Shown here piece after piece: positions 1,685 through 28,348 of a DNA stretch of 42,581 nt. Both the position numbers and the translations under genes were made by a program. Source of the DNA: an uncultured Acholeplasmatales bacterium (lineage in GTDB: Bacteria; Bacillota_I; Bacilli_A; Acholeplasmatales; Anaeroplasmataceae); assembly GCA_944324805.1 (NCBI GenBank), contig CALUXS010000014.1, positions 1 through 42,581 of the forward strand. Reading direction: 5' to 3'. The notes under the pieces were generated by a model. That model was not told the DNA's origin, did not search any database, and saw only the letters and a program-made list of their open reading frames with translations. Every line of letters starts with the position of its first letter. Position 1 is the stretch's first letter.

Positions 1685-2542
1685 ATGAATAATAAAAAAT
1701 GGATGAATGAATCCCAAAAATTAATGGTCTTTGTGTTATCAATGTCAATGTATGGTTTAGCAACGTTATTAACTGAACTAATTCCAAGTATACCTTTAGG
1801 TCCAATTGAATTGTCAGTTGAATATTTTTTGTTTATACCATTAACATTAGCAATGTTATTTGATCCACTATCAGCTGCATTAGGAGCTGCAACGGGCGAA
1901 TTGGTTTTTAGTGAAATAATGCTTGGTCAATTTGGAGGTTTAGGTGAGGTTGAAAAATTTTTGACTGTAACAATAGGTGTATATTTGGCAGGACGTTTAC
2001 TTAAAAATCCTGAAAGTCGTAAAATGGTTGCAATTTGTGCATTTATAGGAACGGCAATGCAATTATTTATGGGAACTATGGTAGATGTTTTAAAGGTTGT
2101 CTTTTCAGTAGAAGAATTTGAGGCTGTTGAAGGTCTTCCTGAATCTGTATTTGTTACTGAGGGTATCGCATTTTTAGTAGATTTAGTCTTTTCTGGTACT
2201 TTGTTTTGTATTCTTCCTTCAATGTTTTTAGTTCCAGCACTACATGGAAAAATTGAACCATTACTAGGAGTTTCACCTAGAACGAATGAAACCATTATTG
2301 GAAATAACAAGGTTATTAATTTAAAAGTTATTTTATTTGTTTTGTTTGGTTTTATATGTGCTGTTGGTTTTGAGTTTTTAGCTGAATCAGGTTTTGAATT
2401 AGTTGATTGGGAAGCAGCGTGGGCCGAATCAAAATTAGCAATGATTATTTCGATGGTTATTAGTGTAATAGTAATTGCTATAATTATTGGAGCAATTGTT
2501 TATCGTAAAAAAAATGATAAGGTAGAAGAGATTTATGATTAA
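1685..2542 (+). CDS. ECF transporter S component, large form (substrate-binding membrane subunit)
   Basis: 285 residues, very hydrophobic, with about six N-terminal membrane helices (roughly residues 12-205) and one or two more near residues 215-275, ending in a short charged tail. Typical S components are 160-220 residues, so this one carries a C-terminal extension. Early helices hold the small-residue stretches usual for ECF S components (for example FDPLSAALGAATGELVF near residues 59-75). The next two genes are the ECF ATPase and T component, overlapping or abutting, which makes the assignment strong. The cargo cannot be read from the sequence. The start is ATG 1685 with AAGGAGA (1668-1674); a TATAAT at 1649-1654 could be its -10. 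No riboswitch fits in the 130-base leader region. Confidence 0.7.
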   Translation: MNNKKWMNESQKLMVFVLSMSMYGLATLLTELIPSIPLGPIELSVEYFLFIPLTLAMLFDPLSAALGAATGELVFSEIMLGQFGGLGEVEKFLTVTIGVYLAGRLLKNPESRKMVAICAFIGTAMQLFMGTMVDVLKVVFSVEEFEAVEGLPESVFVTEGIAFLVDLVFSGTLFCILPSMFLVPALHGKIEPLLGVSPRTNETIIGNNKVINLKVILFVLFGFICAVGFEFLAESGFELVDWEAAWAESKLAMIISMVISVIVIAIIIGAIVYRKKNDKVEEIYD

Positions 2543-4226
2543 AATCCAAAATATGTCATTCACATATCCTGGAGCAAAAGAACCTACGTTAAAAAATATT
2601 AATTTAGAAATAAATGATGGAGATTTTGTCGCACTCATTGGTAATAATGGGTGCGGCAAATCTACTTTATGTAAGACTTTAAATGGATTAATACCACATT
2701 TCATAGTTGGTAAAATGACAGGTAGTGTATTAATAGATGAGATTGATACGACAAAAGTAAAAATTAATCAACTGGCAAAAAAAATAGGATATGTATATCA
2801 AGATTTTGAAAATCAAATTATTATGCCAACAGTTTTAGAGGATGTATCATATGCATGTTTAAACTATGGTTTTGATAACTATATAGAAAAGGGACTTGAG
2901 GCATTAAAAATGTGTGGTTTATCGGAAAAGAAAAATGATTACATATGGGAATTATCTGGAGGTCAAAAACATCTATTAGCACTTGCGGGTGTAGTTGCTC
3001 TTTCGCCTAAAGTAATTATTTTAGATGAACCAATAGCACAGCTAGATCCTTTTCATGCTAAAGAAATATATGAATGTTTGAGACGATTGAATACTTTATA
3101 TAATAAAACTATAGTCGTTATAGAGCATTCGACAGAGTTTATAGCTGAATATTGTAAAGAAGTTATTTTACTTAAAGACGGAAGTGTAAAATGGAAACTT
3201 CCTACTAAAGAGGCTTTAATAAGAGTAGATGAGCTAGAATTAAGTAATATTTATCCGCCACAAGTTACCATTGCTGCAGATAAACTTGCTAAACTCGGCT
3301 TTGTTAATGATTTGCCATATCCTATAACTGTTGAAGATGGATTAAAATATTTTAGTTGTTTTTCATATTCAAATTATATTGAGAAAAATGAAAACAAAAT
3401 AATGCCGCATAATCCTATATTAAACTTTAATGATGTGACATTAAAATATAGATCTGTGAAAGGTGAGCCGAAAAAAACTTTATCAAATTTTTCTTTAATA
3501 TTAAATAAAAACGAAAAAATAGCCTTGATTGGTTCAAATGGAGCAGGTAAATCGACGATAATGAAATTATTAATAGGTTTAATTAAACCTAATGATGGAG
3601 ATATTATTTTTGATGGTAAAAATATCAAAGATGTAGAACCTGAGATTCGCTCAAATAAGATTTCTTTAGTTTTACAAAATCCTGAAGAAATGTTTATCAA
3701 GGACTCCATAAAAAATGATATTATGTATGCAATGAAAGAAAGAGGAGTAAAAGAATATAAGGAAAAATCAAATTATTTATTAGAACGTTTTAGATTATCT
3801 AAGTATCAAGATAAAGATGGAAGATTATTATCAGGCGGACAAATGAGAAGAGCATCACTTGCCATTGGAATAGCTTTAAATCCAGAAATATTATTATTAG
3901 ATGAGCCAACAGCTAATTTGGATATAGCAACAAGACAAGAGATAAAACAAACATTACTAGATTTAAGAGAAATAACTAAAACAGTTATGATTGCAACACA
4001 TGATATGCAATTAGTTTGTGATTGGGCTGATAGGGTTATAGTTCTATACAAAGGTCAAGTATTGGCAGATGGAAAAGTAGAAGATATTTTGAAAAACGAA
4101 TTAGTTAAAGAAAAAGTAGGAATAATACCACCACAAATTGAAAGAATGGCACAAAAACTTGGCTTTACTGATAATTGTTTTACAATAGAAAGATTTGTTG
4201 CACATTTTGGAGGAATTTATGAGTAA
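2535..4226 (+). CDS. ECF transporter energy-coupling ATPase, two fused ABC domains
   Basis: 563 residues, two complete ABC ATPase domains in one chain, like YkoD-type proteins. Domain 1 has Walker A GNNGCGKST (36-44), signature LSGGQ (140-144) and Walker B VIILDEP; domain 2 has Walker A GSNGAGKST (333-341), a signature LSGGQ near 432 and ILLLDEP. Both also have the D-loop and a switch histidine (IEHSTEF, ATHDMQL). It is cytosolic and drives transport by binding the T component. The start overlaps the S-component gene by eight bases and the end overlaps the T-component gene by eight, so the three subunits are translationally coupled. It may also serve the second S component at 7513, which has no ATPase of its own nearby. 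Confidence 0.92.
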   Translation: MIKIQNMSFTYPGAKEPTLKNINLEINDGDFVALIGNNGCGKSTLCKTLNGLIPHFIVGKMTGSVLIDEIDTTKVKINQLAKKIGYVYQDFENQIIMPTVLEDVSYACLNYGFDNYIEKGLEALKMCGLSEKKNDYIWELSGGQKHLLALAGVVALSPKVIILDEPIAQLDPFHAKEIYECLRRLNTLYNKTIVVIEHSTEFIAEYCKEVILLKDGSVKWKLPTKEALIRVDELELSNIYPPQVTIAADKLAKLGFVNDLPYPITVEDGLKYFSCFSYSNYIEKNENKIMPHNPILNFNDVTLKYRSVKGEPKKTLSNFSLILNKNEKIALIGSNGAGKSTIMKLLIGLIKPNDGDIIFDGKNIKDVEPEIRSNKISLVLQNPEEMFIKDSIKNDIMYAMKERGVKEYKEKSNYLLERFRLSKYQDKDGRLLSGGQMRRASLAIGIALNPEILLLDEPTANLDIATRQEIKQTLLDLREITKTVMIATHDMQLVCDWADRVIVLYKGQVLADGKVEDILKNELVKEKVGIIPPQIERMAQKLGFTDNCFTIERFVAHFGGIYE

Positions 4227-5061
4227 ACTGACTGAAAGTATTGTAGATAAAATATCAATAGATTGTATTAAGAATCAGGTATTAAAAAATGCTTATGGAA
4301 ATGATGACACTCTATTAGCTAAAATGGATCCAAGAATGCTTTTAATATGGTATTTATTTTTTGGTATTGTGCCATGGTTTATAAATAATTTATTTGTATT
4401 ATTAGGTTTGTTTTTGTTTGTGGCCGTCACAACTAAGTTAGCTAAAATAGCTCCACTTGTTTTGATATTGTTTTTTATTGGTATATTTACCCAATCGGGT
4501 TATTTACTTATTGTATCTTTGTTTTTTGGCGGTAATGTTGAAACAATTATGGCTTTATTAAATATGACTCTCAAAATTGGAGTAGTTTCATTGGCCTCTA
4601 TTACAGTTTTTTCAGGAATGAACCCAGATCGTCTTTCAAATGGTCTTTTGTGGTTTGGTTGTCCGGAACGTTTATCATTCAGCATTTCTTATGCATATAG
4701 AATATTACCAATTTTGATGACAGAATTTCAAAATATTTTATTATCTTATCGTTTAAGAAGCAAAATTCCGAATAAAAAGGGGATACTTGGTAAATTTAGG
4801 TATTTAATTTTTCAAATTAAGATGATAGTCCTTGCATTTTATCCTTTAATGCTTAATACCGCTAAACGTTCTAGAACTACAGTCGAAGCATTAGAATTAA
4901 AAGGATATCGTTATGCTGCACGAAATAAAAAAATAAAAAAAATGAAGCTAAAGGATTTGAAAATACAAAAAATTGATATAATTTTTGCAATATTATCGGT
5001 TTTATTTGTGGTAGGTTTATTTATAGTTTCTAATTTTACAAAGATTGGAGAGATTTTATGA
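4219..5061 (+). CDS. ECF transporter T component (EcfT/CbiQ family)
   Basis: 280 residues with about five or six membrane helices. Two cytoplasmic coupling motifs typical of the family are visible: YRLRSKIP near residue 185 and AKRSRTTVEALELKGYR near residues 214-230, corresponding to the two Ala-Arg-Gly-type motifs that contact the ATPases. It forms the membrane scaffold between the S component and the ATPase. An upstream in-frame ATG at 4195 exists, but ATG 4219 has GGAGG (4209-4213) five bases before it and gives the ATGAGTAA overlap with the preceding stop, so I chose 4219. It ends in ATGA overlap with the PHP gene. Confidence 0.85.
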   Translation: MSKLTESIVDKISIDCIKNQVLKNAYGNDDTLLAKMDPRMLLIWYLFFGIVPWFINNLFVLLGLFLFVAVTTKLAKIAPLVLILFFIGIFTQSGYLLIVSLFFGGNVETIMALLNMTLKIGVVSLASITVFSGMNPDRLSNGLLWFGCPERLSFSISYAYRILPILMTEFQNILLSYRLRSKIPNKKGILGKFRYLIFQIKMIVLAFYPLMLNTAKRSRTTVEALELKGYRYAARNKKIKKMKLKDLKIQKIDIIFAILSVLFVVGLFIVSNFTKIGEIL

Positions 5062-5864
5062 AAATAGATTTCCATACTCATACCAAATTAGCAAAAAAAT
5101 TACCTTTTTCTAGTATATATACGGATTGGTTATTTGATGAAGCTCATAAACTTGGTTTGGACGCTATAGCAATTACAGAACATTTTAACACAAATGGTTT
5201 TGCTGAAGTTTATAGTTATATTCATAGTAATTATGAAAAAGTTGGTGACTTTTATAGAGCTAAAAGTGGATTAATCATAATTCCAGGGATGGAAATAGAT
5301 ATAAAAGAGGGTGGTCATACAATTATTTTGGGTAAAATGGAACACATATTAGATATAAATAAAAGATTAGAAAAAAATAAAAATGAAGCTAATTTTTTAA
5401 CTTTTAAAGAATTAGTAAAGTTGATACGAGAATATGATGTTATTTTTGGTGCTGCTCATCCATACCGAGGTAGAAGTAATATTCCAACATTAAAGATAGA
5501 ATATTTGAGATGTTTTGATTTTGTTGATTTAAATGGTAAAGATACAGCAATTGATAAAAATGGTAATATAGAACGTGTAAGAGTATTATCAAATTTATTA
5601 AATCGTCCGATTCTTTGCGGATCAGATACTCATCAAAGTTTCCAATATGGTTGTGTTTGGTCTAATTTTAAAAATAATTTTTATACATTTGAGGAATTGA
5701 AGTCGGAAATAAAGCTTGGTAATTATGTAAATTATATTTCTGATGATATATACGCAAAAGTTAAATCTGCTGCTACACTAAAAAAGGCATTGAAAGAGTT
5801 ATATTTCCTAGGGTATGACTATATAAGTATACTTGTTGATAGTAAGATTGATACCTCAATATAA
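5058..5864 (+). CDS. PHP-domain hydrolase in the ECF operon
   Basis: 268 residues. It has the four PHP motifs in order: DFHTHTK (H6, H8), AITEHFN near 40, GMEID near 78, AAHPYRG near 135 and GSDTHQS near 190. These bind a two- or three-metal centre, so the protein is probably a phosphoesterase or related hydrolase acting in the cytosol. It overlaps the T-component gene by ATGA and is followed by a terminator, so it is the last gene of the transporter transcript. This suggests it processes the imported compound or a related phosphorylated form, but no substrate can be named. No signal peptide or membrane segment is visible. Confidence 0.8.
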   Translation: MKIDFHTHTKLAKKLPFSSIYTDWLFDEAHKLGLDAIAITEHFNTNGFAEVYSYIHSNYEKVGDFYRAKSGLIIIPGMEIDIKEGGHTIILGKMEHILDINKRLEKNKNEANFLTFKELVKLIREYDVIFGAAHPYRGRSNIPTLKIEYLRCFDFVDLNGKDTAIDKNGNIERVRVLSNLLNRPILCGSDTHQSFQYGCVWSNFKNNFYTFEELKSEIKLGNYVNYISDDIYAKVKSAATLKKALKELYFLGYDYISILVDSKIDTSI

Positions 5865-5866
5865 TT

Positions 5867-5892
5867 AAAGTAAGTTTCTACTTACTTTTTTT
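5867..5892 (+). terminator. Rho-independent terminator of the ECF operon
   Basis: AAAGTAAG (5867-5874), loop TTTCTA, CTTACTTT (5881-5888), then T residues to 5892. It is placed two bases after the PHP stop codon. Confidence 0.85.
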
Positions 5893-5894
5893 GT

Positions 5895-5923
5895 TTGGTA
5901 TTTTAGTAAATATATGTTAAAAT
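5895..5923 (+). promoter_or_regulatory. Promoter of the DUF4430 lipoprotein genes
   Basis: TTGGTA (5895-5900), 17-base spacer, TAAAAT (5918-5923) with an extended TG at 5915-5916. GGAGG (5933-5937) precedes the ATG at 5944. It gives the second half of the locus its own transcription start. Confidence 0.6.
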
Positions 5924-5943
5924 AGCAACATTGGAGGTTTTGT

Positions 5944-7131
5944 ATGAAAAAAATATTTATTACTCTATTTATGAGTTTATTATTACTTGCAGGATGTAAG
6001 AAAGATGATAATCCTAAAGGTAACGAAGAAACAAATTTAAATTATAAAATAACTGTATATGATTTAGATGGTGAATTATTAGTAGATGATACTATTTCAG
6101 CAACAAGTAATGAAAATCTATTTGAGAGATTGAAAAATGATTATAATGCCACTTATGAGGAAAGCAATTATGGACCTTATTTAACTTCTGTGGCAAATTC
6201 AATAATTGATAAAAACTATTATGTTGCAATTTACGAAAATGATAGCTATGCAACAAGTGGCGTAAGTGATTTAGTAGTTGATAATAATGATCATTTTACA
6301 TTCAAAATAGAATGTTTTAATAATGAGTTTGATGAATATGATTTAATGCTAGATAAAGCCATTTATAGCTATATGAAAAATTATTTTAAAGATATAGTTA
6401 GTAAAGAAGAAGAATTTAGTACTAGCATGTCAGAATTTTGGTCTTATATGATGGTATCAATGGCTAGAGCTAATGGCTATGATAATAAGGTATTTAATTT
6501 AGATTTTGTAAAAGATAAGATGCTAAAATCATTAGAAGAGTTCGATGTAAATACTTTAACAGGACAAGCAATTGGTAAATATTATTATGTTGCAAGAGCA
6601 TTAGACTATAATCTTACTGACTACTTTAACTTTTATGAAAAGTTCGCTTCTGAAAATACTTATCCATTTAGCGAATATACTAGTCCATTTATAATGCGTC
6701 CGGCCGCATCTTTAGAAAATAAGCCAGCATGGCTAGATGAATATGTAAATGCCAGTCTTGCATCAGATTATTGGGGACCTGATGGTGCAGCTTGGCAATT
6801 AATGATTCAAAGTTATTTTAGAGATATAAAGAAAGATGAGCTTTTACCATTAACAGGAAAACTTGATTGGGATTATTCAAAAAATGCAACTTCAAAATCA
6901 TTAGTTTTAGCAGCATTTGCAAGTTGTGGGTATGATTTAAGAAGTGAAGAATATGAAGTAGATGGTGTTGATATGTTAGAAGATATTTTTAATAAATATT
7001 ATATAGATGGTTTAGTATGCTATAACGAAGATACACTAGAGCCAAATATGTCTACTTCACAAATTTATGCTTATTTAATGAATTATAAAGTTTTTAGAGA
7101 TAGTAGAAATAAGGTGACATTATTTGCGTAA
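5944..7131 (+). CDS. Surface lipoprotein: DUF4430 (transcobalamin-like) plus alpha-helical toroid-like domain
   Basis: 395 residues. A lipoprotein signal peptide ends in LLAGC with the acylated Cys18. Residues about 34-112 match DUF4430: a beta-rich start (ITVYDLDGELLVDDTI), a NLFERLKNDY helix, and YYVAIYENDSYATSGVSDL. The rest (about 120-395) is helical with repeat-like pieces such as GPDGAAWQLMIQSYF and ATSKSLVLAAFASCGYD. These resemble the alpha/alpha-toroid of terpene-cyclase and transcobalamin-type proteins. Intrinsic factor and transcobalamin carry the same two domain types in the opposite order. It probably sits on the outer face of the membrane and hands a ligand to the ECF system; a corrinoid is the natural guess, unproven. 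The next gene overlaps by eight bases. Confidence 0.7.
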   Translation: MKKIFITLFMSLLLLAGCKKDDNPKGNEETNLNYKITVYDLDGELLVDDTISATSNENLFERLKNDYNATYEESNYGPYLTSVANSIIDKNYYVAIYENDSYATSGVSDLVVDNNDHFTFKIECFNNEFDEYDLMLDKAIYSYMKNYFKDIVSKEEEFSTSMSEFWSYMMVSMARANGYDNKVFNLDFVKDKMLKSLEEFDVNTLTGQAIGKYYYVARALDYNLTDYFNFYEKFASENTYPFSEYTSPFIMRPAASLENKPAWLDEYVNASLASDYWGPDGAAWQLMIQSYFRDIKKDELLPLTGKLDWDYSKNATSKSLVLAAFASCGYDLRSEEYEVDGVDMLEDIFNKYYIDGLVCYNEDTLEPNMSTSQIYAYLMNYKVFRDSRNKVTLFA

Positions 7132-7516
7132 GCTTATATTTAAAATATCTATATCAGTAGTCGCAGTATTAATTATGGTTGGGGGATATTTATATTTTAC
7201 TAACCTTAATAAAATTGATGCTAGTAAAGGAATAGTAACAATAGAGGTTTTTGATATTAATAATGAGATGATTATTAATGACAAACTAGAATTTAGGGAA
7301 GAAGATACTTTAGTTTCTTTATTAGAAAATAATTACAAGGTCATATTAGAAGATGGGCCTTATGGTAAAACTCTTTTGGCTATTGATAAAATTGAAACAG
7401 ATTTTAAGTCTACATATTTAGCTATCTATGTTGATGGTAAATATGCTACAACAGGAATTTCTGGTATAAATCTTGTTGATGGAAGAAAAATTACATTTTG
7501 TGAGACTAAAATATGA
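7124..7516 (+). CDS. Membrane-anchored DUF4430 protein
   Basis: 130 residues: an N-terminal signal anchor (about residues 6-26) and one DUF4430 domain (about 37-128) outside the membrane. Its pieces IEVFDINNEMIINDKLEF, DGPYGKTLLAIDKI and YLAIYVDGKYATTGIS parallel those in the lipoprotein just upstream, so the two are paralogues. It lacks the helical domain. The start is TTG 7124, with AAGGTG (7111-7116) before it, overlapping the lipoprotein gene by eight bases. Its stop overlaps the next start as ATGA. It likely works with the lipoprotein and the second S component in ligand handover; that role is inferred from context. Confidence 0.65.
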   Translation: MRKLIFKISISVVAVLIMVGGYLYFTNLNKIDASKGIVTIEVFDINNEMIINDKLEFREEDTLVSLLENNYKVILEDGPYGKTLLAIDKIETDFKSTYLAIYVDGKYATTGISGINLVDGRKITFCETKI

Positions 7517-8010
7517 AAACTAGAAATATTACAATTATTGCAATCTTGACTGTAATTTTATTTGTTCAGGAGCAAGTTCTTGTTTTTTTACCTAATATTA
7601 GTTTAACAGTTTTTTTAATAGTTTTATATTCTAAGGTACTAGGATTTAAAAAAACGACAATAATAATATTAATTTATGTTTTATTAGATAACTTATATAT
7701 GGCAAGCTTTAGTTTGTATTTTTTCCCTTTTATGTTTATTGGTTGGGAATTAATTCCTATTATATTTTGTTCGTTTTTTAAGAAGATAGAAAATTCATTT
7801 ATACTAGCCTTAGGTGCTGTTTTATGCTCATTTTTGTATTGCTTTATTTATTTCATTCCTAATTATGTATTTTTAGAGATTGATTTAGTTCCATATTTTA
7901 TTGCTGATTTACCATTCGAGTTTTTATTAGCTGGATCAAGCTTTTTAACGACACTGTGGCTTTATCCTCCTGTTAAAAGAAAACTATTAGAACTATATTT
8001 AAAAAATTAA
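7513..8010 (+). CDS. ECF transporter S component (second, short form)
   Basis: 165 residues, almost entirely hydrophobic with five or six membrane helices and a short basic end (PPVKRKLLELYLKN). Size and hydropathy fit an ECF S component. In many Bacillota an S-component gene lies directly next to DUF4430 genes, as here, with ATGA overlap. No ATPase or T gene accompanies it, so it would use the module encoded at 2535-5061. Substrate is not readable; by neighbourhood it is the membrane receiver for whatever the two DUF4430 proteins bind. The family call is based on size, hydropathy and context rather than on a unique motif. Confidence 0.6.
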   Translation: MKTRNITIIAILTVILFVQEQVLVFLPNISLTVFLIVLYSKVLGFKKTTIIILIYVLLDNLYMASFSLYFFPFMFIGWELIPIIFCSFFKKIENSFILALGAVLCSFLYCFIYFIPNYVFLEIDLVPYFIADLPFEFLLAGSSFLTTLWLYPPVKRKLLELYLKN

Positions 8011-8030
8011 AAGCACTAACCGTGCTTTTT
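8009..8030 (+). terminator. Rho-independent terminator
   Basis: AAAAGCAC (8009-8016), loop TAACC, GTGCTTTT (8022-8029) and further T residues. It closes the DUF4430/S-component transcript. Confidence 0.85.
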
Positions 8031-8054
8031 CTTTTCTAGACTATATATTTTAGT

Positions 8055-8060
8055 TATAAT
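8055..8060 (+). promoter_or_regulatory. -10 box upstream of the NUDIX gene
   Basis: TATAAT lies 21 bases before the ATG at 8081. A clear -35 is not seen; TTTTCT at 8032-8037 is at the right distance but weak. Confidence 0.4.
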
Positions 8061-8080
8061 ATAAAAGGTAGGGTATTTAT

Positions 8081-8599
8081 ATGCGTTTATTATTTGAAAT
8101 TGGATTAAAAATAGATATTAATAATGAATTGGTTTATAGAAGGCCATCAGCTAGAGCAATTATTTTAAATGGCAATAAAGTTGGTCTTATTTATAGTAAG
8201 AGGTATAATTATTATAAATTTCCTGGAGGCGGAATAGAAATAAACGAGAGTAATATAGAGGCCTTAATTAGAGAAACTAAAGAAGAAGCAGGACTTAATA
8301 TAATTCCCTCTACAATTAAAGAATTTGGCTTAGTTAAAAGAATAGATGATTACAATAAGGATGGTTATAGATATTTTTATCAGGAAAATTATTATTACTT
8401 GTGTGATGTTTATCCATTTATTGAAGCACAAAAATTAGATGATTATGAATCCTATGAAGGCTTCACTTTTAAGTATGTTGATATTTTAGAAGCTATTGAA
8501 ACTAATAGGTGTAATTCACATAATAATAAAAGTAAGCAGATGCTAGAAAGAGAAGCTAAAATATTAGAACTTATAAAAAAAGAAATAATAAATAGCTAA
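8081..8599 (+). CDS. NUDIX hydrolase
   Basis: 172 residues. A perfect Nudix box G-x5-E-x7-RE-x2-EE-x-GU is present around residues 49-71 (GGGIEINESN, then ALIRETKEEAGL). Family members cleave nucleoside diphosphates linked to another group, using Mg2+ held by the EE pair. The residues that set substrate choice are not recognisable to me, so a general house-cleaning role in the cytosol is all that can be said. It stands between a terminator and the NifX-like gene, with 56 bases before the latter. Confidence 0.85.
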   Translation: MRLLFEIGLKIDINNELVYRRPSARAIILNGNKVGLIYSKRYNYYKFPGGGIEINESNIEALIRETKEEAGLNIIPSTIKEFGLVKRIDDYNKDGYRYFYQENYYYLCDVYPFIEAQKLDDYESYEGFTFKYVDILEAIETNRCNSHNNKSKQMLEREAKILELIKKEIINS

Positions 8600-8655
8600 A
8601 ATTTGCATTCTTGAAAGAATAGGATTAAAATTAAAGCATAGAGGTGAATTAGAAA

Positions 8656-9027
8656 ATGAAACTAGCAGTTACATATGAAAATGGTAAAGTTTTTGAGCAC
8701 TTTGGTCATACTAAGGAACTAAAGGTTTATGAGATTTTTAATGATGAAATTACTAATTCTGAGGTAATAAGCACAAATGGTAATGGTCATAGTGCATTAG
8801 TTGGCTTTTTAAAGGACTTAAAAATTGATGTTCTTATTTGTGGTGGTATTGGTACAGGCGCAGTTAATGCTTTAAATGATGCTGGCATTAAATTAATAGC
8901 AGGTCAAGCAGGAGATACCGACCTTGTTGTTGATAATTTTATTAAAGGTAAATTAGATTTAAGTAAAAAGGCAAATTGTAATCATCATCATAGTAATGAA
9001 GGCTGTGGTGAGCATACTTGTCATTAA
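8656..9027 (+). CDS. NifX/NifB-type (dinitrogenase cofactor biosynthesis fold) protein with His/Cys tail
   Basis: 123 residues. Residues 1-105 fit the NifX-like alpha/beta fold (PF02579 type): MKLAVTYENGKVFEHFGH, HSALVGFLKDLKIDVLICGG, then GTGAVNALNDAGIKLIAG. Stand-alone members of this family occur widely in bacteria that do not fix nitrogen, and no nif gene is near. The last 17 residues are rich in metal ligands (CNHHHSNEGCGEHTCH), suggesting metal binding or storage. The start ATG 8656 follows GAGGTGA (8641-8647). Role is unknown beyond likely metal or Fe-S cluster handling. Confidence 0.8.
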   Translation: MKLAVTYENGKVFEHFGHTKELKVYEIFNDEITNSEVISTNGNGHSALVGFLKDLKIDVLICGGIGTGAVNALNDAGIKLIAGQAGDTDLVVDNFIKGKLDLSKKANCNHHHSNEGCGEHTCH

Positions 9028-18684: not shown

Positions 18685-21600
18685 ATGAGACTAAATTATA
18701 AGAATTTTTTTATAACTATAGCCTTATTAATAGGCATAACCTTTACAGCTTTTATTAGTAATAATAAAGCTAAAGCAAGTGATGAAAATAGTTTTTCTGT
18801 TAGTACTATCACTAGAAGTCACGAATTAGTAAGTGAAAAATATCTAGAAGCATATTCTATTACTAACAATAATCAAGAAGAAATTTACATTACAAATGTA
18901 AATAGTAATGCACCTTATTACGGACAAAATAAAAGGGAAAATGCAGTTGATGGTAATTTTAATACTTTTTGGGAAACTAATAAGGTAAATACTATTGATT
19001 TTAAAAATGAATTTGTCATTGAATTAAATAAAGAAACAACAATTAATCGTTTAGTATTTGCTACTAGACGTGATGGCTCAGAAAAGAAGGGATTTCCTTT
19101 AGAGGCTACATTCTATATTTCTAATGACGGAATTGAATATACTAAAATTGGGGTTGGTAAAACTAGTTTAACGGATAAGGTTTTATTATATACCTTTGAT
19201 AAAAACTATACCTTCAAGTTTTTTAAATTTGAATATACTGATATAAATCCTGAATTAACAAAGCATGCAAGTGCAAGTGAGTTTATTCTATTGAAACCTG
19301 AGGAAAAGGAAGTTGTAGCGATTAGAAACCTTTTTTCAGATTATAAAAAAAGTATAATTAAAGAAGAGTATAACGATATTGAAGTTATCAATAATTTAAG
19401 AGAATTAGTTATTGATAATCCAATTTATGAGACAGTCTTAAAGGATAATTTAGATAGAGCAGAAAGCATATTAGAAAATAGTATTATTTTCGATGTTTCT
19501 AATAGAGAATTTTCAACAGGTAATCTTACTAGTAAAAAGATAAAACAAGTAGGAAGCATAGCTGATTTTAGAAGAAAATTAAAACATACTTGGCAAGGAA
19601 CTGATAGACAAGCAACAGGCATCTTTGGTAATCCAGGGGATGAAATAACTGTTTATGTTGAAGCAAATGAAAATGATCCACTTCCACAAATATGTTTTAC
19701 ACAATATATTGCAACCTATCATGGCTGGCAGGAAACTAAAAGCCTAACAGTTGGAGAAAATAAGTTCATTGTACCTAATTTATATAAAGACTCTTATGCT
19801 TCATATGGGGAAAGTATTCCAGGCGGACCAATTTATCTAATAAATCCGTACACAAGCGACGAACAAAGTCAAAATGTTAAGATTTACATTGAAGGTGGAG
19901 AGGATTTCCCAATTTTCTATGAAGGTGACAATGAGTATGATTTCAAAGATGAATTAGCAAACTATTTAGAAAAATATTATGCTAATAGAGAAAAATATCA
20001 TAACTTATGTGAGATTGTATCAGATAATGTGATACTTACAATTCAAGCAACGAGAGCTGATTATTTTTATAATAGTAAAAATTATGATGTTGTTAAAACA
20101 TGCGAAAATTGGGATTTATTTATTAGGTCTATTCATGAATTCGATGGGGTAACACTTAACGAAAATGATAAATATTATGATCCTCGGGCAAACTATTACA
20201 ATGTCAATATTAGAATTATGCAACCTTTTGGTTCAGCATATGCCTATACGGAGCATATAGGTATCCAAATTGGTACTTGGCAAGATATTGCTATTACAGG
20301 TGAGAATTTAAGTTGGGGATATGCTCATGAGATTGGTCATATGCTAGCAATGGGCGAACGTGAGATTGGTGAGGTAACAAATAATATGCATTCTCAGTTC
20401 AATCAAGCTTACTTAGAAAGAAATGGTGCGAGGGGAAATACAAATACCTTTAAGGATTATTTCTTTAGTGATGATGCAGAAGCTAGAAAAACTTATAATG
20501 ATTTGCCTTTAATTGAAAAAAGTCTTTTATGGTGGAATATTGAGGTTATGTATCCTGGCTACTGGGGTAGACTTAATAATTTGTATCGCTATCAAACTTT
20601 AACTACAGACTTAAATAAAATTGAAAAGCATGTTTATTTTAGTAGTATAGCAACAGGTGTTGATATGTCATATTATTTTATTAGAACTGGCTTTGATGCT
20701 TGGGGAAAATTTGATGAAAATAATATGTCAGATAACTTTAAGAAACTTATGAAGGAATTAAAGGATAATAATACAATCAAAGAAGAAGAGAAAAAGCTTT
20801 GGTATTTTGATAGTATGTCTGCAACCTATAATTACGAAATGGGTAATGAATTAAATATCTATTCTAATGATATAGCAATTGACATTCTAGGTGTTAGTAA
20901 GGAAAGTGATGGATATTTAATTATTTTACCAAATAAAGGAACACAAATTGCTCATTTAGGATATGAAATTTATGAAGGAACACCAGATAATTTAAAATTA
21001 ATTGCTTTTACTTATGGAAATACATATAAAGATAGTAAAACTTATACGGATGGATATATACCTTCATATTATATTAAGGCTATTGATAGACGTCTTAATT
21101 CTACTAAATTAAGTTTGCCTTATACAATTGCTGACAATACTAATAACGTTTGTAAAATAAATGATACCTACTATACATCACTAAAAGAAGCTATCAGTAA
21201 AGCAAATGATGCTGACACTATTTATTTACTTAGTGATATTAAAGAGGATAATATTGTAATTGATAAAAATATAACAATTACGATAGCTGAAAACCTAAAT
21301 AAGAATATAATAATTTATAAATTAACTAATAATCCTATTTTTAAAGTTAATGCAAATGTTACTTTTACTTTAAAAGGCAATGATAACTATAAATTATTAA
21401 TAGATGGAAATAATACAAGCCTTGCCGGAAGAATTATTTATTCGAATGGTGGTTTAAATTTAGATAATATAGAAGTAAAAAATATTATATCTAGTACTTC
21501 TGATGGAGGTATTATTTACAATAGCTCAAATGGTAGTGTTAATATTAGTAATTCAAAGTTTAGTAATATTAAGGCTAATGGTAAGGGTGCTATATTATAT

Positions 21601-23112
21601 AATGCTAATGCGAGCATTAACCTAACAAATACTATTTTTGATAGTAATAGCGCTAATGATGGTGGAGCCTTTTATAGTTTATCAGCAAATATTAAAATAA
21701 CTGATTGTAGCTTTATAAATAATTCTGCTAAAACAGGTGGTGTAGCAGTTACTAATAACAGCGGTAATGTTGTTGTAGATAATACAAGCTTCATAAATAA
21801 TAAAGCCACTAGTATGGGTGGTGTTGCCTTTACGCAAGCTAATTGGACAATTACAAGAAGTATTTTTACAGGCAATATATCAAATGGTGATGCTGGTGTG
21901 TTTTATGCTCAATATATGAGTAATATTAATTTAAGTGAATGTGAAATTAATAATAATGAAGCTAAAAGTAATGGTGGTGTAGTTTTTGGTAATCAATATA
22001 GTGTAGTTGGAGTTACAAATTGTACTATTTTTGATAACAAGGCAAGCAAAGGTAACATTATTTTTATGAATCAAGCTTATGATAGAACGTTAACTATTAT
22101 TACTAATGGCAATAAAATGTCAGGATCAATATGGATTGGAAGTAAGCACACTATTAACATTAAGGGTAGCTTAGATAATTTATATTTAGAAATTGGTACT
22201 ACTAAAGCTATAGGGCAAATAGTATTAAATACAGAAGTAGAATTAGATGATAATTTTTCTAAATACTTTGATTTAGAATTTGAAACAAAAAATAAGTATA
22301 GTCTTGAATTGAAAGAAAACTTAAAAAGTCTAGCTTTAATTGAGGGTAGTTATACTATTAATCTAGAGATTTTAGATGAAACAAAACCATATTTAGAGGT
22401 TAAATACAATGATAATATTACTCTACCTACATTTGATAATAACCTAGATGGATATAAATTTTTATATTGGCAATATAATGGTAAAAATTATAACCCAGGT
22501 GAAAATATTACTATAGTTGGTAATTATCCTATTATTGCTATATTTGAGCAATATAAATTCCCATTTATTATTAGTACAGCTGAAAACATAGTGGAATCTA
22601 GTAAAATGTATCAAGATGGTGATAAGGTAGATTTGAATGATTTAACTTTTACAATTACAGGAAAAAGAATTACAGGCTGGATTTATAAGGGAAAAGTTTA
22701 TGATAGCAATGATACAATAACTTTTGATAGTAGATATCAAGAGATTTCTCCTATTTTAACTAATACAAACAAGATTACTGTAATAATTAATAGTGAGAGT
22801 CATGTTTTAAATGGTGAATTTTTACCAGGCGATATTATAAATCTTTCTGATTTAGCAAAACAATTTTCTAATCCTATTAGTGCCTTTATTTACAACGGTA
22901 TTGAATACAAGATAACAGATTCTATTGTAATAGCTGATGGAGTTTATACAATTGAGGCTATTTTAGAAGATGATGTAGAAGAAGTACCTTCTACACCTTC
23001 AACACCGGATGATAAAAATAACGTCTATATTTATATTGTTTTAGGTGTAGTTGTTACTATAGTTTTAGCAGGTACTTTAACATTTGTATTTATTAAAAAA
23101 AGAAAAAACTAG
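18685..23112 (+). CDS. Surface M60-like (mucin-type) zinc metallopeptidase with discoidin, beta-helix and InlB-type repeats
   Basis: 1475 residues, exported and membrane-anchored. Order: signal peptide 1-32 (cleavage after AKA); F5/8-type discoidin domain about 68-207 (ENAVDGNFNTFWETN); helical linker; M60 peptidase about 295-720 with zinc motif HEIGH at 548-552 and a further glutamate at 560-563; a beta domain to about 815; a parallel beta-helix about 830-1150 with Chlamydia-PMP-like GGAFYS, GGVAVT and FxxN repeats (SFINNSA, SFINNKA); InlB-type B repeats about 1236-1400; a Pro/Thr/Asp-rich spacer; a transmembrane helix about 1446-1468; and KKRKN. There is no LPxTG sorting motif. M60 enzymes cut O-glycosylated mucins, and discoidin domains bind glycans, so a host-mucus role is likely. 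It stands alone behind its own promoter. Confidence 0.85.
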   Translation: MRLNYKNFFITIALLIGITFTAFISNNKAKASDENSFSVSTITRSHELVSEKYLEAYSITNNNQEEIYITNVNSNAPYYGQNKRENAVDGNFNTFWETNKVNTIDFKNEFVIELNKETTINRLVFATRRDGSEKKGFPLEATFYISNDGIEYTKIGVGKTSLTDKVLLYTFDKNYTFKFFKFEYTDINPELTKHASASEFILLKPEEKEVVAIRNLFSDYKKSIIKEEYNDIEVINNLRELVIDNPIYETVLKDNLDRAESILENSIIFDVSNREFSTGNLTSKKIKQVGSIADFRRKLKHTWQGTDRQATGIFGNPGDEITVYVEANENDPLPQICFTQYIATYHGWQETKSLTVGENKFIVPNLYKDSYASYGESIPGGPIYLINPYTSDEQSQNVKIYIEGGEDFPIFYEGDNEYDFKDELANYLEKYYANREKYHNLCEIVSDNVILTIQATRADYFYNSKNYDVVKTCENWDLFIRSIHEFDGVTLNENDKYYDPRANYYNVNIRIMQPFGSAYAYTEHIGIQIGTWQDIAITGENLSWGYAHEIGHMLAMGEREIGEVTNNMHSQFNQAYLERNGARGNTNTFKDYFFSDDAEARKTYNDLPLIEKSLLWWNIEVMYPGYWGRLNNLYRYQTLTTDLNKIEKHVYFSSIATGVDMSYYFIRTGFDAWGKFDENNMSDNFKKLMKELKDNNTIKEEEKKLWYFDSMSATYNYEMGNELNIYSNDIAIDILGVSKESDGYLIILPNKGTQIAHLGYEIYEGTPDNLKLIAFTYGNTYKDSKTYTDGYIPSYYIKAIDRRLNSTKLSLPYTIADNTNNVCKINDTYYTSLKEAISKANDADTIYLLSDIKEDNIVIDKNITITIAENLNKNIIIYKLTNNPIFKVNANVTFTLKGNDNYKLLIDGNNTSLAGRIIYSNGGLNLDNIEVKNIISSTSDGGIIYNSSNGSVNISNSKFSNIKANGKGAILYNANASINLTNTIFDSNSANDGGAFYSLSANIKITDCSFINNSAKTGGVAVTNNSGNVVVDNTSFINNKATSMGGVAFTQANWTITRSIFTGNISNGDAGVFYAQYMSNINLSECEINNNEAKSNGGVVFGNQYSVVGVTNCTIFDNKASKGNIIFMNQAYDRTLTIITNGNKMSGSIWIGSKHTINIKGSLDNLYLEIGTTKAIGQIVLNTEVELDDNFSKYFDLEFETKNKYSLELKENLKSLALIEGSYTINLEILDETKPYLEVKYNDNITLPTFDNNLDGYKFLYWQYNGKNYNPGENITIVGNYPIIAIFEQYKFPFIISTAENIVESSKMYQDGDKVDLNDLTFTITGKRITGWIYKGKVYDSNDTITFDSRYQEISPILTNTNKITVIINSESHVLNGEFLPGDIINLSDLAKQFSNPISAFIYNGIEYKITDSIVIADGVYTIEAILEDDVEEVPSTPSTPDDKNNVYIYIVLGVVVTIVLAGTLTFVFIKKRKN

Positions 23113-23121
23113 TTTAAAGTA

Positions 23122-23151
23122 AAAGAGTAGCTTCACATCAAGCTACTCTTT
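23122..23151. terminator. Bidirectional terminator between convergent genes
   Basis: AAAGAGTAGCTT (23122-23133), loop CACATC, AAGCTACTCTTT (23140-23151). It ends the M60 transcript, and the minus-strand pcp stop codon overlaps the right arm. Confidence 0.8.
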
Positions 23152-23704
23152 ATTTTAGATTGTTGATTATTATTTTTAAGGCTTCTTTTTGTTGTTCTAA
23201 AGAATAATTAGAAGCTAATGGAAGATGAATGAATAAGGCCTGATAACCATATGTATTAGCCATATCTAAAAGATGATAATATGTTGAATTACAAACATAG
23301 CTACCCGCTGATGTTGATAAAGTAGCATTGTGCCCCTTATCCTTTAATTCCTTTATAAAGGTATTTATAGGAAGAGTAGTAAAATAAGCCTTTGGTCCTT
23401 TATTTTTTATTAGACTACCATCTTCAATTACCCCCATATTATCAGGAATTGTTGCATACATATAATTTATGGCTGCTAGTTCTAATGAGATTTTTAGTCG
23501 CATTTGAGCAAGCCCTAAAGAAATAACATAATCTGGTTTTATTTCTTTTATTTTAGCTTCTAAGATATCTCTTACTTTATGATAGGATACAGGTAAAACA
23601 ACCGTGTAAACTTCTTCATCCTCTAAAAGTGGCAGTATTTGCATAGAGGGATTCTCTTTATTATTGTTAAAAGGTTCAAAGCCAGTTATTAGTATTTTTT
23701 TCAA
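23150..23704 (-). CDS. pcp: Pyroglutamyl-peptidase I (pyrrolidone-carboxylate peptidase)
   Basis: 184 residues, somewhat shorter than the usual 200-215. It begins KILITGFEPFNNNKENPS, the family's opening motif. The catalytic triad is in place: E75 in KISLELAAIN, C138 in TSAGSYVCNSTYY and H160 in FIHLPL. This cytosolic cysteine peptidase removes N-terminal pyroglutamate from peptides. The usual glycine-rich GxAGGR before the glutamate is here GLAQMR, a mild variation. The start is TTG 23704, supported by GGAGG eight bases upstream on the minus strand; there is no ATG nearby. It is a single-gene unit. Confidence 0.85.
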   Translation of the reverse strand: MKKILITGFEPFNNNKENPSMQILPLLEDEEVYTVVLPVSYHKVRDILEAKIKEIKPDYVISLGLAQMRLKISLELAAINYMYATIPDNMGVIEDGSLIKNKGPKAYFTTLPINTFIKELKDKGHNATLSTSAGSYVCNSTYYHLLDMANTYGYQALFIHLPLASNYSLEQQKEALKIIINNLK

Positions 23705-23725
23705 TGTTCTTACCTCCTTTTTAAA

Positions 23726-23734
23726 ATTCTAGCA
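23726..23734 (-). promoter_or_regulatory. Extended -10 promoter of pcp
   Basis: Read on the minus strand: TG-C-TAGAAT, about 22 bases before the TTG start. The -35 is weak. Confidence 0.35.
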
Positions 23735-23782
23735 CTTTTTCTAATTATTTCCTATAATTTTAAAGAAAAAAATAGCGTAATT

Positions 23783-23791
23783 TGTTATAAT
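23783..23791 (+). promoter_or_regulatory. Extended -10 promoter of the pectinesterase-like gene
   Basis: TG-T-TATAAT with the TATAAT at 23786-23791. AAGGTGA follows, before ATG 23820. Confidence 0.5.
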
Positions 23792-23819
23792 TTAAACCGA
23801 AGGAAAAGGTGAAAAGATT

Positions 23820-24602
23820 ATGGACATAAGTGATAAGAAAATTACCTTAAATGAGGCTTTTAAAATGGCCTCAGAAGGAGAAACTATTTATTTAGGTAAT
23901 AGAATATTTATAGAAAAAATATATGTAGAAAAGAAAAATATAGAATTAGTTGGCAATGGAGCAATAATTACCTTTTGTGCTTCACATGGTACGATTATTC
24001 CTAAGGAATTAGGGGGAGATGGAATAAAGACTTACGGCACAACAGGAAGCGCAACATTTACTGTTAAAAAGGAAGGTGAAGGTTTTAAAGCTAGTGGCAT
24101 TACCTTTGAAAACAGCTTTAAAAGAAATGGTGCTAAAAATGGACAGGCAGTAGCTTTTAAAAGTGAAACTTCACATATTAGAATTGAAAAATGCAGATTT
24201 ATTTCAGAACAAGATACTTTATATATAGATGAAGGAATCGATAATGAGATAAAGGACTCCTTTATCACAGGGGATGTAGATTTTGTTTTTGGTAGTGCAC
24301 AGTGTAAATTTACTAATTGTACATTCTTAGGAATAAATAAGGGTTACTTTATTGCCCCAGATACATATGATATTTATCCTAGTGGATTTACCTTCATTGA
24401 TTCAAGATTTTTATTAGCCGAAAATGCAAGCCTAAGCTTAGGTAGACCTTGGTTTCCTGGTGGGGCAAAACATTTTGTATACCCAAAAGCAAAATTCATT
24501 AGATGTGAATTTGACTCAAAAATTGATTTGAAAATGATTAGAATGCATGATACTGATCCTATTCGATATGAATTAGATTTTGAGGATTGTAAATTGCAAT
24601 AA
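23820..24602 (+). CDS. Pectinesterase-like protein without signal peptide
   Basis: 260 residues, a right-handed beta-helix of the carbohydrate esterase 8 kind. All the active-site landmarks are present: Q109 in GQAVAF, Q131-D132 in EQDTLY, D154 in GDVDFVFG and R209 in LGRPW. The classic enzymes remove methyl groups from pectin outside the cell. Here the N-terminus (MDISDKKITLNEAF) is charged and has no signal peptide or lipobox, so the protein appears cytosolic. It is also shorter than secreted members (about 300 or more). It could act on imported methylated oligogalacturonides, or have another ester substrate. The cca gene follows after 24 bases, perhaps on the same transcript. Confidence 0.8.
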   Translation: MDISDKKITLNEAFKMASEGETIYLGNRIFIEKIYVEKKNIELVGNGAIITFCASHGTIIPKELGGDGIKTYGTTGSATFTVKKEGEGFKASGITFENSFKRNGAKNGQAVAFKSETSHIRIEKCRFISEQDTLYIDEGIDNEIKDSFITGDVDFVFGSAQCKFTNCTFLGINKGYFIAPDTYDIYPSGFTFIDSRFLLAENASLSLGRPWFPGGAKHFVYPKAKFIRCEFDSKIDLKMIRMHDTDPIRYELDFEDCKLQ

Positions 24603-24626
24603 GTTTTATTTAAAGGATTTGATAAA

Positions 24627-25967
24627 ATGTTTAGAATTAGTATTCCTAAAAATATAGCATTAGCTCTAAAAATGCTAAATGAAAAAGGAGAGGCATATAT
24701 TGTAGGAGGCTGTGTTAGAGATGCTTTGCTTAATCTTAAGCCTACGGATTATGATATTACAACTAGCCTAACTCCTGATAAAATAAAGGAAGTATTTAAG
24801 GATTATCGCATAATTAATAATAATGGGGAAAAGCATGGCACTGTAAATGTAATTATCAATAAAGAAAAGATTGAGATAACTACTTACCGTTATGAAGGAG
24901 AATATCTAGATGGAAGGCATCCTTCATTCGTAGGCTTTACTGATGATTTGGCATTAGATTTAAAAAGACGTGATTTTACAATTAATGCTATGGCCTATAA
25001 TGATTCAAAAGGACTAATAGATTATTATGGTGGGAAAGAAGATTTAAAAAATGGCATCATAAGGACTGTAGGTACGCCAAGCTTAAGATTTGGTGAGGAT
25101 TATTTAAGAATATTAAGAGGCCTACGCTTTATGGGACGCTTTAATTTTAAAATAGAAAAAGAAACAAAAGATGCAATGCTTAATTTAGCTTATGGTTTAA
25201 AAAAAATATCAAGTGAAAGAATAGTTAATGAGCTAAAGGAAATTTTAGTAAGCAAAAACATCTTAGAGATTTTATTAGAATATAGACCGATTTTTACGAC
25301 AATTTTCCCTGAACTAATAGATACAATAAATTTTGATCAAAAAAGTAAGTGGCATAGCCATGATGTATATACCCATATATGCTATGTTACAAGCTATACT
25401 AAGCCTGATTTCATTACAAGATTAGCAGCCTTACTTCACGATATAGGTAAGCCACATTCATATCAAGAAGAGGTAATTGATAAAAATGTCATAAGACATT
25501 TTAAAGGTCATGCTAAGGTATCTTATCAAGCTAGCATAGAAATTTTAAAAAGGCTTAAGGTTTCTAATGAAATTAAAAATCAAGTTTTATTTTTAGTGTT
25601 ATATCATGACATTGAAATTATGCCAAATAAAAAAAGTATCAAAAACATTTTATTAAAAATGCCTAATCTAAATTTAGAATTATTTTATAAGCTAATTGAT
25701 TTGAAAAAGGCAGATTCCTTAGATCATACAATCAAAACAAATTTAGATTATGAATTAATATTAAATATTGCAAAAGAAATTATACTATCAGGTGAAATTA
25801 TAACGTTAAAGGAACTAGCTATAGATGGTAATGATTTAAAGATTTTAGGCTATCATGGTAGTGATATTGGTAAAATTTTAAATTATTTACTAAAAGAAGT
25901 TATAGAAGGAAGACTAAAAAATCAAAAGGAAATACTATTAAAGTCTTTAGTAAAGGTGAGACTATGA
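24627..25967 (+). CDS. cca: CCA tRNA nucleotidyltransferase
   Basis: 446 residues. Class II nucleotidyltransferase head: GG at 27-28, R31-D32, and the metal-binding DYD at 41-43 in LKPTDYDITTS. RRDFTINAMAY and the nucleotide-selecting loop ERIVNELKEIL follow. The middle has an HD domain (LAALLHDIGKP, about residue 270). The enzyme adds or repairs the CCA end of tRNAs using CTP and ATP without a template. Genomes of this type need it when tRNA genes lack encoded CCA. RBS AAGGA is ten bases before ATG 24627. It overlaps the next gene as ATGA. Confidence 0.92.
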   Translation: MFRISIPKNIALALKMLNEKGEAYIVGGCVRDALLNLKPTDYDITTSLTPDKIKEVFKDYRIINNNGEKHGTVNVIINKEKIEITTYRYEGEYLDGRHPSFVGFTDDLALDLKRRDFTINAMAYNDSKGLIDYYGGKEDLKNGIIRTVGTPSLRFGEDYLRILRGLRFMGRFNFKIEKETKDAMLNLAYGLKKISSERIVNELKEILVSKNILEILLEYRPIFTTIFPELIDTINFDQKSKWHSHDVYTHICYVTSYTKPDFITRLAALLHDIGKPHSYQEEVIDKNVIRHFKGHAKVSYQASIEILKRLKVSNEIKNQVLFLVLYHDIEIMPNKKSIKNILLKMPNLNLELFYKLIDLKKADSLDHTIKTNLDYELILNIAKEIILSGEIITLKELAIDGNDLKILGYHGSDIGKILNYLLKEVIEGRLKNQKEILLKSLVKVRL

Positions 25968-26428
25968 ACATTGATAAAATTGATAGAATAAAGGATGTAT
26001 TTATTAATACAGATTTTATATCTTGTTATCAAGAGCTGTTTAATTTTATAAATGAATTTAGATTAGCACTTATGAAAGTGTTTATAGACTATGATTTTTC
26101 AAAAAAAGTAACTGAAAATAGGTTGGATTATGCCTATTTTCAGTTTTATAATAAAAGTCTTAAGGAAAAAGGCCTAAAGTATGTAATTACATTCGATTAT
26201 AAGAGCTTTAGTTTTTATTTTTGGTTATCTGGCATTAATAAAGGAGTGCAAAATAGTTATTTTTCTCTTGCAAAAGAAAAATATAGAGAAAATTGTACAA
26301 AAAATCCATTAAAAAGTGATTATTTATTATTTTTTATTTTAAAAAATGAAAATTTTTGTCTAGATATATTAATAGAGAGAGTTTTGTTAGTAGAAAAAGA
26401 ATTAAGAAACTTTCTTAATAGTCTTTAA
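25964..26428 (+). CDS. DUF7000-like hypothetical protein
   Basis: 154 residues, translationally coupled to cca through ATGA. The central part reads LDYAYFQFYNKSLKEKGLKY, then YKSFSFYFWLSGINKGVQ. This resembles the small DUF7000 family, whose members share a D-x-x-YF...LK...KI...F-x-WL-x-G-x-N-K core. It is soluble, with no signal peptide. No function is known. The neighbour cca does not by itself imply a tRNA role. Family assignment is moderate because it rests on that one block. Confidence 0.5.
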   Translation: MNIDKIDRIKDVFINTDFISCYQELFNFINEFRLALMKVFIDYDFSKKVTENRLDYAYFQFYNKSLKEKGLKYVITFDYKSFSFYFWLSGINKGVQNSYFSLAKEKYRENCTKNPLKSDYLLFFILKNENFCLDILIERVLLVEKELRNFLNSL

Positions 26429-26462
26429 GCTTTCCTTAAAGCAGCAGCAATTAAGATTTTAA

Positions 26463-26491
26463 TTGTATTAGGAAGGCTAAAAGAGTATAAT
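26463..26491 (+). promoter_or_regulatory. Promoter of the membrane-protein gene at 26509
   Basis: TTGTAT (26463-26468), 17-base spacer, TATAAT (26486-26491). It lies after a weak hairpin (CTTTAAG 26423-26429/CTTAAAG 26435-26441) that has no T-run. Confidence 0.6.
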
Positions 26492-26508
26492 TTTTATGGG
26501 TGGAGTCT

Positions 26509-27393: not shown

Positions 27394-27405
27394 TTGGAGG
27401 TAATG

Positions 27406-28287: not shown

Positions 28288-28338
28288 AAAAAGATGCGTT
28301 TGTAAGGACTAATAAGCCCCTTAAAGACGCATCTTTTT
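28288..28338. terminator. Bidirectional terminator between convergent genes
   Basis: AAAAAGATGCGT (28288-28299) pairs with ACGCATCTTTTT (28327-28338), with an inner TAAGG (28303-28307)/CCTTA (28319-28323). T-runs are present in both directions. Confidence 0.85.
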
Positions 28339-28348
28339 ATTTATTTAA

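Follow-up and report, generated by a model that had tools for sequence, protein, structure and literature searches.

A predicted CbrT-type corrinoid importer paired with transcobalamin-like DUF4430 proteins in an uncultured Acholeplasmatales bacterium

Introduction

To our knowledge, energy-coupling factor (ECF) transporters have been described as binding their vitamin directly by the S component, without a separate soluble capture protein. We analysed a stretch of 42,581 nucleotides from an uncultured Acholeplasmatales bacterium (GenBank assembly GCA_944324805.1, contig CALUXS010000014.1), hereafter the window, in which a predicted ECF S component, S2, is encoded directly behind two proteins with the DUF4430 domain: a large lipoprotein (D44L) and a small membrane-anchored protein (D44s). 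The cassette formed by these three genes (5944-8010) is almost certainly a B12 importer of the CbrT type, and we consider it likely that the whole of it is a corrinoid (cobalamin or cobinamide) acquisition system, in which D44L captures the ligand, D44s passes it on and S2 imports it through an ECF module encoded on another contig of the genome (C17). A second ECF cassette, with an S component of its own (S1), lies immediately upstream (1685-5864).

The closest described transporter is ECF-CbrT of Lactobacillus delbrueckii (PDB 6FNP), for which transport of cobalamin and cobinamide has been shown experimentally; CbrT alone binds and transports cobalamin with nanomolar affinity, and its gene stands in the order nrdJ-cbrS-cbrT-pduO (PMC5997447). 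One ECF module serves CbrT and other S components alike (PMC5997447, PMC12075633). Like this system, the window's cassette has an S component that appears to be a remote homologue of CbrT and that would share one ECF module in the group II manner, and it has a small partner gene at the position of cbrS, as do Lactobacillus relatives with the order nrdJ-DUF4430-CbrT-adenosyltransferase. It differs in adding a much larger DUF4430 protein with a predicted alpha/alpha barrel, in the uncleaved-type anchor of its small partner, and in the fusion of partner and S component that is seen among its relatives.

In the structures of transcobalamin and intrinsic factor, the ligand lies between the two domains of the protein. 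Both domain folds of these vertebrate carriers and of haptocorrin (2BB5, 2PMV, 4KKI, 5NO0) recur in the model of D44L, which differs from them in having the beta domain first, in being a bacterial, lipid-anchored protein, in its insignificant sequence similarity, and in that its ligand binding is putative. The name DUF4430 has also been used for fragments of fish transcobalamin (PMC4350170). Among solved bacterial proteins, RUMGNA_00854 (3U7Z) is the best structural and sequence match of the window's DUF4430 domains, although it is a single domain and its PDB entry is titled 'putative metal binding protein'. BtuF of BtuCDF resembles the proposed system in capturing a corrinoid outside the cytoplasm for an ABC-type importer, whereas its fold is unrelated (that of a periplasmic binding protein) and its partner is a type II importer rather than an ECF S component. 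For RUMGNA_00854 we know of no transporter context. In the open literature, covered by titles, the beginnings of abstracts and term counts, we found no paper linking DUF4430 to ECF transport or to bacterial B12 uptake, and none giving a function for cbrS or DUF4430. CbrT and the DUF4430 fold are already known; what is new is the pairing of a predicted two-domain, order-reversed, transcobalamin-like lipoprotein with an S component.

Results

The window's S2 gave no match when it was searched alone against the PDB with phmmer. A profile of 11 S2 homologues found one significant chain, that of CbrT (6FNP_A, E 5.3e-5, profile positions 3-157 of 167), and the relation is a remote one because the direct search gave nothing and the profile was needed. 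The fold was modelled on a homologue in which DUF4430 and S component are fused (locus L082), standing in for the window's S2: the S-component part aligns with 4huq_S at Z 14.6 over 157 residues and with other S components at Z 10-14.5, and the absence of 6FNP from the structural matches listed for this model carries no weight either way. Foldseek returned nothing below 0.001 for the fusion model, the VIA realignment alone being clear. Judged by the family profile and by the modelled fold of the homologue, S2 would be an S component of the CbrT type. Remoter CbrT-like S components (about 225-300 residues; L154, L156, L157, L160-L166, L168-L170) sit directly after an ABC ATPase gene, with no DUF4430 gene seen at those loci, and some of these loci have another short membrane protein downstream, possibly QueT; they may form a different substrate group.

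The cargo of the S2 family was examined in 150 genomes of the order and in 77 S2 loci from named genomes. S2 is present in 65 of the genomes, and a B12-binding domain (PF02310) scores over its cut-off in 69; 58 genomes have both, seven S2 only, 11 PF02310 only and 74 neither, so that PF02310 accompanies S2 in 58 of 65 genomes against 11 of the 85 others (Fisher p 3e-22, the species not being independent). Five of the seven S2 genomes without PF02310 have QueG, and in two of these five, G030 and G071, its gene is near S2. Genomes with the locus and without any corrinoid enzyme, which the preliminary description of this DNA had named as an observation that would speak against its corrinoid hypothesis, thus come down to two; these are 72% and 78% complete, and both carry a cobalamin riboswitch. 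Such riboswitches were detected at 50 sites in 48 of the genomes, and 44 of the sites lie on the same strand as S2 and less than 4 kb upstream of it. A riboswitch also stands ahead of DUF4430-CbrT-like cassettes in seven further Bacilli loci (L152, L153, L155, L158, L159, L167, L192).

The genes beside S2 vary from locus to locus. The pair metF-metH is found upstream (L075, L087, L106, L110, L121, L122, L126) or downstream (L053, L056, L058), and many S2 relatives for which no riboswitch was detected follow metH directly; lysine fermentation genes adjoin S2 in nine of the 77 loci, a lysine 5,6-/ornithine 4,5-aminomutase in L129, the adenosyltransferase CobO in L063 and L064, and a gene pair including a DUF4080 B12-type radical S-adenosylmethionine (SAM) protein in L054, L055 and L140. 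Since these neighbours differ and yet are all linked to B12, the factor that they have in common is a corrinoid. A corrinoid cargo of the S2 family is well supported by riboswitch position, B12-enzyme neighbours, co-occurrence and homology to CbrT. The preliminary description, which had suggested a corrinoid, is upheld on the same grounds, and its reservation that the cargo may be something else for want of a riboswitch loses force with the riboswitches of most relatives. Two copies of S2 were seen in L081 (2920-3441 and 7152-7676). The second member of the pair just mentioned is a radical-SAM gene of the PF08497/DUF3362 kind, divergent from the DUF4080 gene; in the window genome (G000) this pair lies away from the DUF4430-S2 cassette, on contig C10 at 22500-28500 (L135).

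The association of DUF4430 with S2 is likewise well supported: DUF4430 adjoins S2 or is fused to it in 71 of the 77 loci, 43 of 60 adjacent pairs overlap, and D44s and S2 are a single protein in five loci. The large D44L was found in 55 loci, and the small anchored DUF4430 protein stands by itself, without a barrel protein, in 17. DUF4430 is paired in this way with true relatives of CbrT as well: L. intestinalis has nrdJ-DUF4430-CbrT-adenosyltransferase, L. plantarum nrdJ-adenosyltransferase-DUF4430-CbrT and E. gilvus queG-DUF4430-CbrT. As the first of these matches the order around cbrT in L. delbrueckii, cbrS is probably the DUF4430 gene of that species, an assignment made by gene order. In another family of Bacilli (L190, L191, L195) the genes run metF-metHact-metH-barrel protein-DUF4430-CbrT-like, and separate genes encode the barrel and the beta domain; these barrel proteins have weak Prenyltrans or squalene-hopene cyclase matches and sometimes an fn3-like tail. 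In L110 the large DUF4430 lipoprotein is duplicated in tandem (5047-7592).

An AlphaFold2 model of D44L, made with 39 homologues, reached a predicted local distance difference test score of 90.6 and a predicted template modelling score of 0.88. Against the DUF4430 cut-off of 23.8 bits, the whole protein scores 20.2, below it, and the domain alone 24.7. In the model, residues 30-126 align with the beta domain of human transcobalamin (5no0, Z 13.0 over 99 residues; 5np4, Z 12.9 over 100; Foldseek E 2-3e-4), while the DUF4430 part of the fused homologue L082 matches the beta domains of transcobalamin, haptocorrin and intrinsic factor at Z 10.4-11.5, and the D44s profile matches 3U7Z at E 6e-13. 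The barrel aligns with the alpha domain of intrinsic factor over about 230 residues at 13% identity, and other alpha/alpha barrels (epimerases, terpene cyclases) tie with intrinsic factor on it at Z 12.8-14.7. All 39 homologues retain Cys18 as well as the barrel residues D280 and Q373. The beta domain comes first and the barrel second, which is the reverse of the order in the vertebrate carriers.

A direct sequence search of D44L against the PDB gave no match, the DUF4430 profile was insignificant against intrinsic factor (E 0.36), and the barrel had no Pfam match in 29 members and no significant match as a profile against the PDB. Homology of DUF4430 to the human B12 carriers is not reached at the level of sequence, and the link therefore rests on the fold; because the domain order is reversed and the sequence profiles are insignificant, D44L is described here as working like transcobalamin and is not filed as a member of that family. 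As modelled, D44L would combine the two kinds of domain known from the vertebrate carriers, with their order reversed. The preliminary description had called the DUF4430 lipoprotein transcobalamin-like and placed it with the second S component; the structure prediction of the protein starting at 5944, alone, which it had proposed as a check, agrees with this in giving a transcobalamin-like beta domain together with an intrinsic-factor-like barrel.

The cassettes at 1685-5864 and 5944-8010 are unrelated, and their seven genes are not one system. S1 was absent from the other genomes of the order (150 searched) and was present in six others of 392 genomes of the phylum, at 56-64% identity. In each of the five relatives that were opened (unrelated Bacilli, L185-L189) S1 is followed by the fused ATPase, the T component and the PHP hydrolase, the cassette as a whole being about 43-67% identical gene by gene, and no DUF4430 or S2 gene stands beside it; nor do S1, AA', T or PHP genes adjoin the S2 cassette in the relatives' loci that were inspected. 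A canonical ecfA1-ecfA2-ecfT-truA cluster is found on contig C17 of the same genome at 5330-8667, and the S2 cassettes of relatives have no A or T gene of their own, the arrangement that defines a group II ECF system. Because the S1 cassette is self-contained elsewhere and the canonical C17 module is present, a borrowing of the S1 module by S2 is neither needed nor supported, and the preliminary description's proposal that S2 borrows the ATPase and T component of the first cluster is abandoned. By analogy with CbrT, which shares its module, S2 most likely uses the EcfA1-EcfA2-EcfT module of C17. A possible RpiR-like regulator, its N-terminus read by eye, stands beside the S1 cassette in two of the five Bacilli. 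As a group I ECF transporter that has a PHP hydrolase to itself, the S1 cassette is worth separate attention.

All seven open reading frames of 1685-8010 are intact and in the order given in the table below. Their overlaps are 8, 8 and 4 nucleotides within the first cassette and 8 and 4 within the second, and the gap between the cassettes (5865-5943) contains a terminator-like hairpin, AAAGUAAG-loop-CUUACUUUUUUU; the reading as two transcripts is therefore correct, and both the gene inventory and the two internally overlapping transcripts of the preliminary description were found as it had stated. D44s starts with TTG and has an N-terminal hydrophobic anchor of the uncleaved type. Elsewhere in the window, 18685-23112 encodes a protein of 1475 residues that has a signal-like stretch at its N-terminus and a hydrophobic anchor at its C-terminus, and that carries a metalloprotease-like motif, HEIGH (AYAHEIGHMLAMG).

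Table. Features of the two cassettes and their surroundings, in window coordinates
Feature	Position	Strand	Evidence
S1, the S component of an independent group I ECF cassette, outside the B12 system	1685..2542	+	Homologues 56-65% identical, accompanied by AA', T and PHP in all five unrelated Bacilli
Fused EcfA-EcfA' of the S1 cassette	2535..4226	+	TIGR04521/TIGR04520, two stretches
EcfT of the S1 cassette	4219..5061	+	CbiQ 34.9 bits; homologues 63-67% identical in the same cassette
PHP-domain hydrolase, conserved last gene of the S1 cassette	5058..5864	+	PF02811
Terminator-like hairpin with U-tract between the cassettes	about 5868..5892	+	-9.1 kcal/mol, z -3.2
Promoter-like site TTGGTA-17-TAAAAT, extended -10, ahead of D44L	5895..5923	+	Consensus match only; the scan gave no excess over shuffles
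D44L, DUF4430 lipoprotein, candidate corrinoid capture protein	5944..7131	+	Lipobox LLAGC; DUF4430 domain; AlphaFold2 model
DUF4430/transcobalamin beta-like domain of D44L, residues about 30-126	6031..6321	+	3u7z, Z 14.6 over 95 residues
Alpha/alpha barrel of D44L, residues about 130-395	6331..7128	+	Intrinsic factor alpha domain 3kq4_A Z 13.4, 2pmv_A Z 13.3
D44s, membrane-anchored single-DUF4430 protein, gene at the CbrS position, proposed partner of S2 in docking or hand-over	7124..7516	+	DUF4430 28.4 bits
S2, CbrT-related ECF S component, predicted corrinoid-specific	7513..8010	+	S2-family profile match to CbrT; no Pfam or NCBIfam match
Terminator-like hairpin after S2	8009..8029	+	

Discussion

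Gene content and order, the predicted folds of the D44L domains and of the S2 homologue, the homology of S2 to CbrT, the linkage of the family to riboswitches and B12 enzymes, and the fusion of DUF4430 with S2 are the data behind the system that we propose. On the outside of the membrane, D44L, tethered by its lipid, would bind the corrinoid and presumably hold it between its domains; D44s, whose anchor places it beside S2, would receive, share or orient the corrinoid coming from D44L; and S2 would take it and move it across the membrane with the shared EcfA1-EcfA2-EcfT of C17. From those data we infer that D44L and D44s bind corrinoids and hand them on in this order, that S2 uses the C17 module, and that the cassette has this function in this particular genome.

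Several observations weigh against this proposal. A search of the window detected no cobalamin riboswitch, even with the threshold for the region relaxed to E 10, in agreement with the preliminary description, nor was one found in the rest of the genome, and the 79-base gap before D44L is too short for a complete riboswitch aptamer. A search of the window genome found neither QueG nor NrdJ, and the one B12-binding protein that it has, the DUF4080 radical-SAM protein of contig C10, is of putative function; seven other species of the genus are without the locus; and the genome has two FecCD permeases, which leave room for another corrinoid importer. These findings, above all the lack of a riboswitch in the genome, the single candidate for a B12-type enzyme and the congeners without the locus, would suit a different cargo for this copy, some other large cofactor or metal complex, with a specificity that changed after the riboswitch was lost, a point also made in the preliminary description. 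Such a change is very improbable, as the window's S2 is up to 60% identical to that of a Holdemanella metagenome-assembled genome in which the locus reads S2-metF-metHact-metH (L053), as many relatives without a riboswitch lie directly behind metH, and as the genome's one B12-type gene belongs to the very pair that adjoins S2 in three other loci. The DUF4080/PF08497 pair is a candidate B12 user, and the window's copy of the cassette may have been acquired recently and serve a single enzyme.

Other points concern the DUF4430 proteins themselves. By sequence profile the DUF4430 domain is insignificant against human haptocorrin (E 0.07), and the barrel is common to many sugar- or terpene-acting enzymes at equal Z, so that its fold alone is no evidence of B12 binding; moreover, in vitro transport of B12 by the L. 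delbrueckii CbrT proceeds with no DUF4430 protein present (PMC5997447), and the partner is therefore not essential in that case. It is conceivable, though we think it unlikely, that S2 imports a corrinoid while the DUF4430 proteins act as a gate or lid, as stabilisers, or as strippers of corrinoid from other binding proteins or debris: the nanomolar affinity of CbrT alone, the 17 loci with only the small anchored protein, and the family in which the barrel and the beta domain belong to different proteins all fit such a role, whereas the two-domain architecture of D44L, as modelled, matches that of full-length corrinoid carriers. Least credible of all is a coupling in which the neighbouring EcfAA' and T serve S2 and the DUF4430 proteins, and in which the PHP hydrolase takes part. 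The two clusters do adjoin each other on the same strand of the window, but S1-AA'-T-PHP stands alone in five unrelated Bacilli, S1 occurs in no other sampled genome of an order in which S2 is frequent, a terminator hairpin separates the clusters, and a canonical ECF module is present elsewhere in the genome; the first three of these led us to reject the coupling. The corrinoid acquisition system outlined above is the reading that we retain.

Beyond this genome, it is probable that in many Bacilli the B12 ECF transporters work with dedicated extracellular carriers of the transcobalamin type, namely an anchored beta-domain protein, often together with a two-domain lipoprotein, and sometimes fused to the S component. 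If this is true, ECF transporters would include a class equipped with a substrate-capture protein, the vertebrate B12 carriers would be relatives of a bacterial uptake system, and a large family named as a 'domain of unknown function' would gain a testable job. If DUF4430 proteins load S components of the CbrT type, the exception to the ECF rule would be a widespread one, with S2 in 65 of 150 genomes of the order and the pair also in Lactobacillus and Enterococcus. A bacterial two-domain counterpart to the human B12 carriers would bear on the origin of those carriers and on the competition for B12 in the gut.

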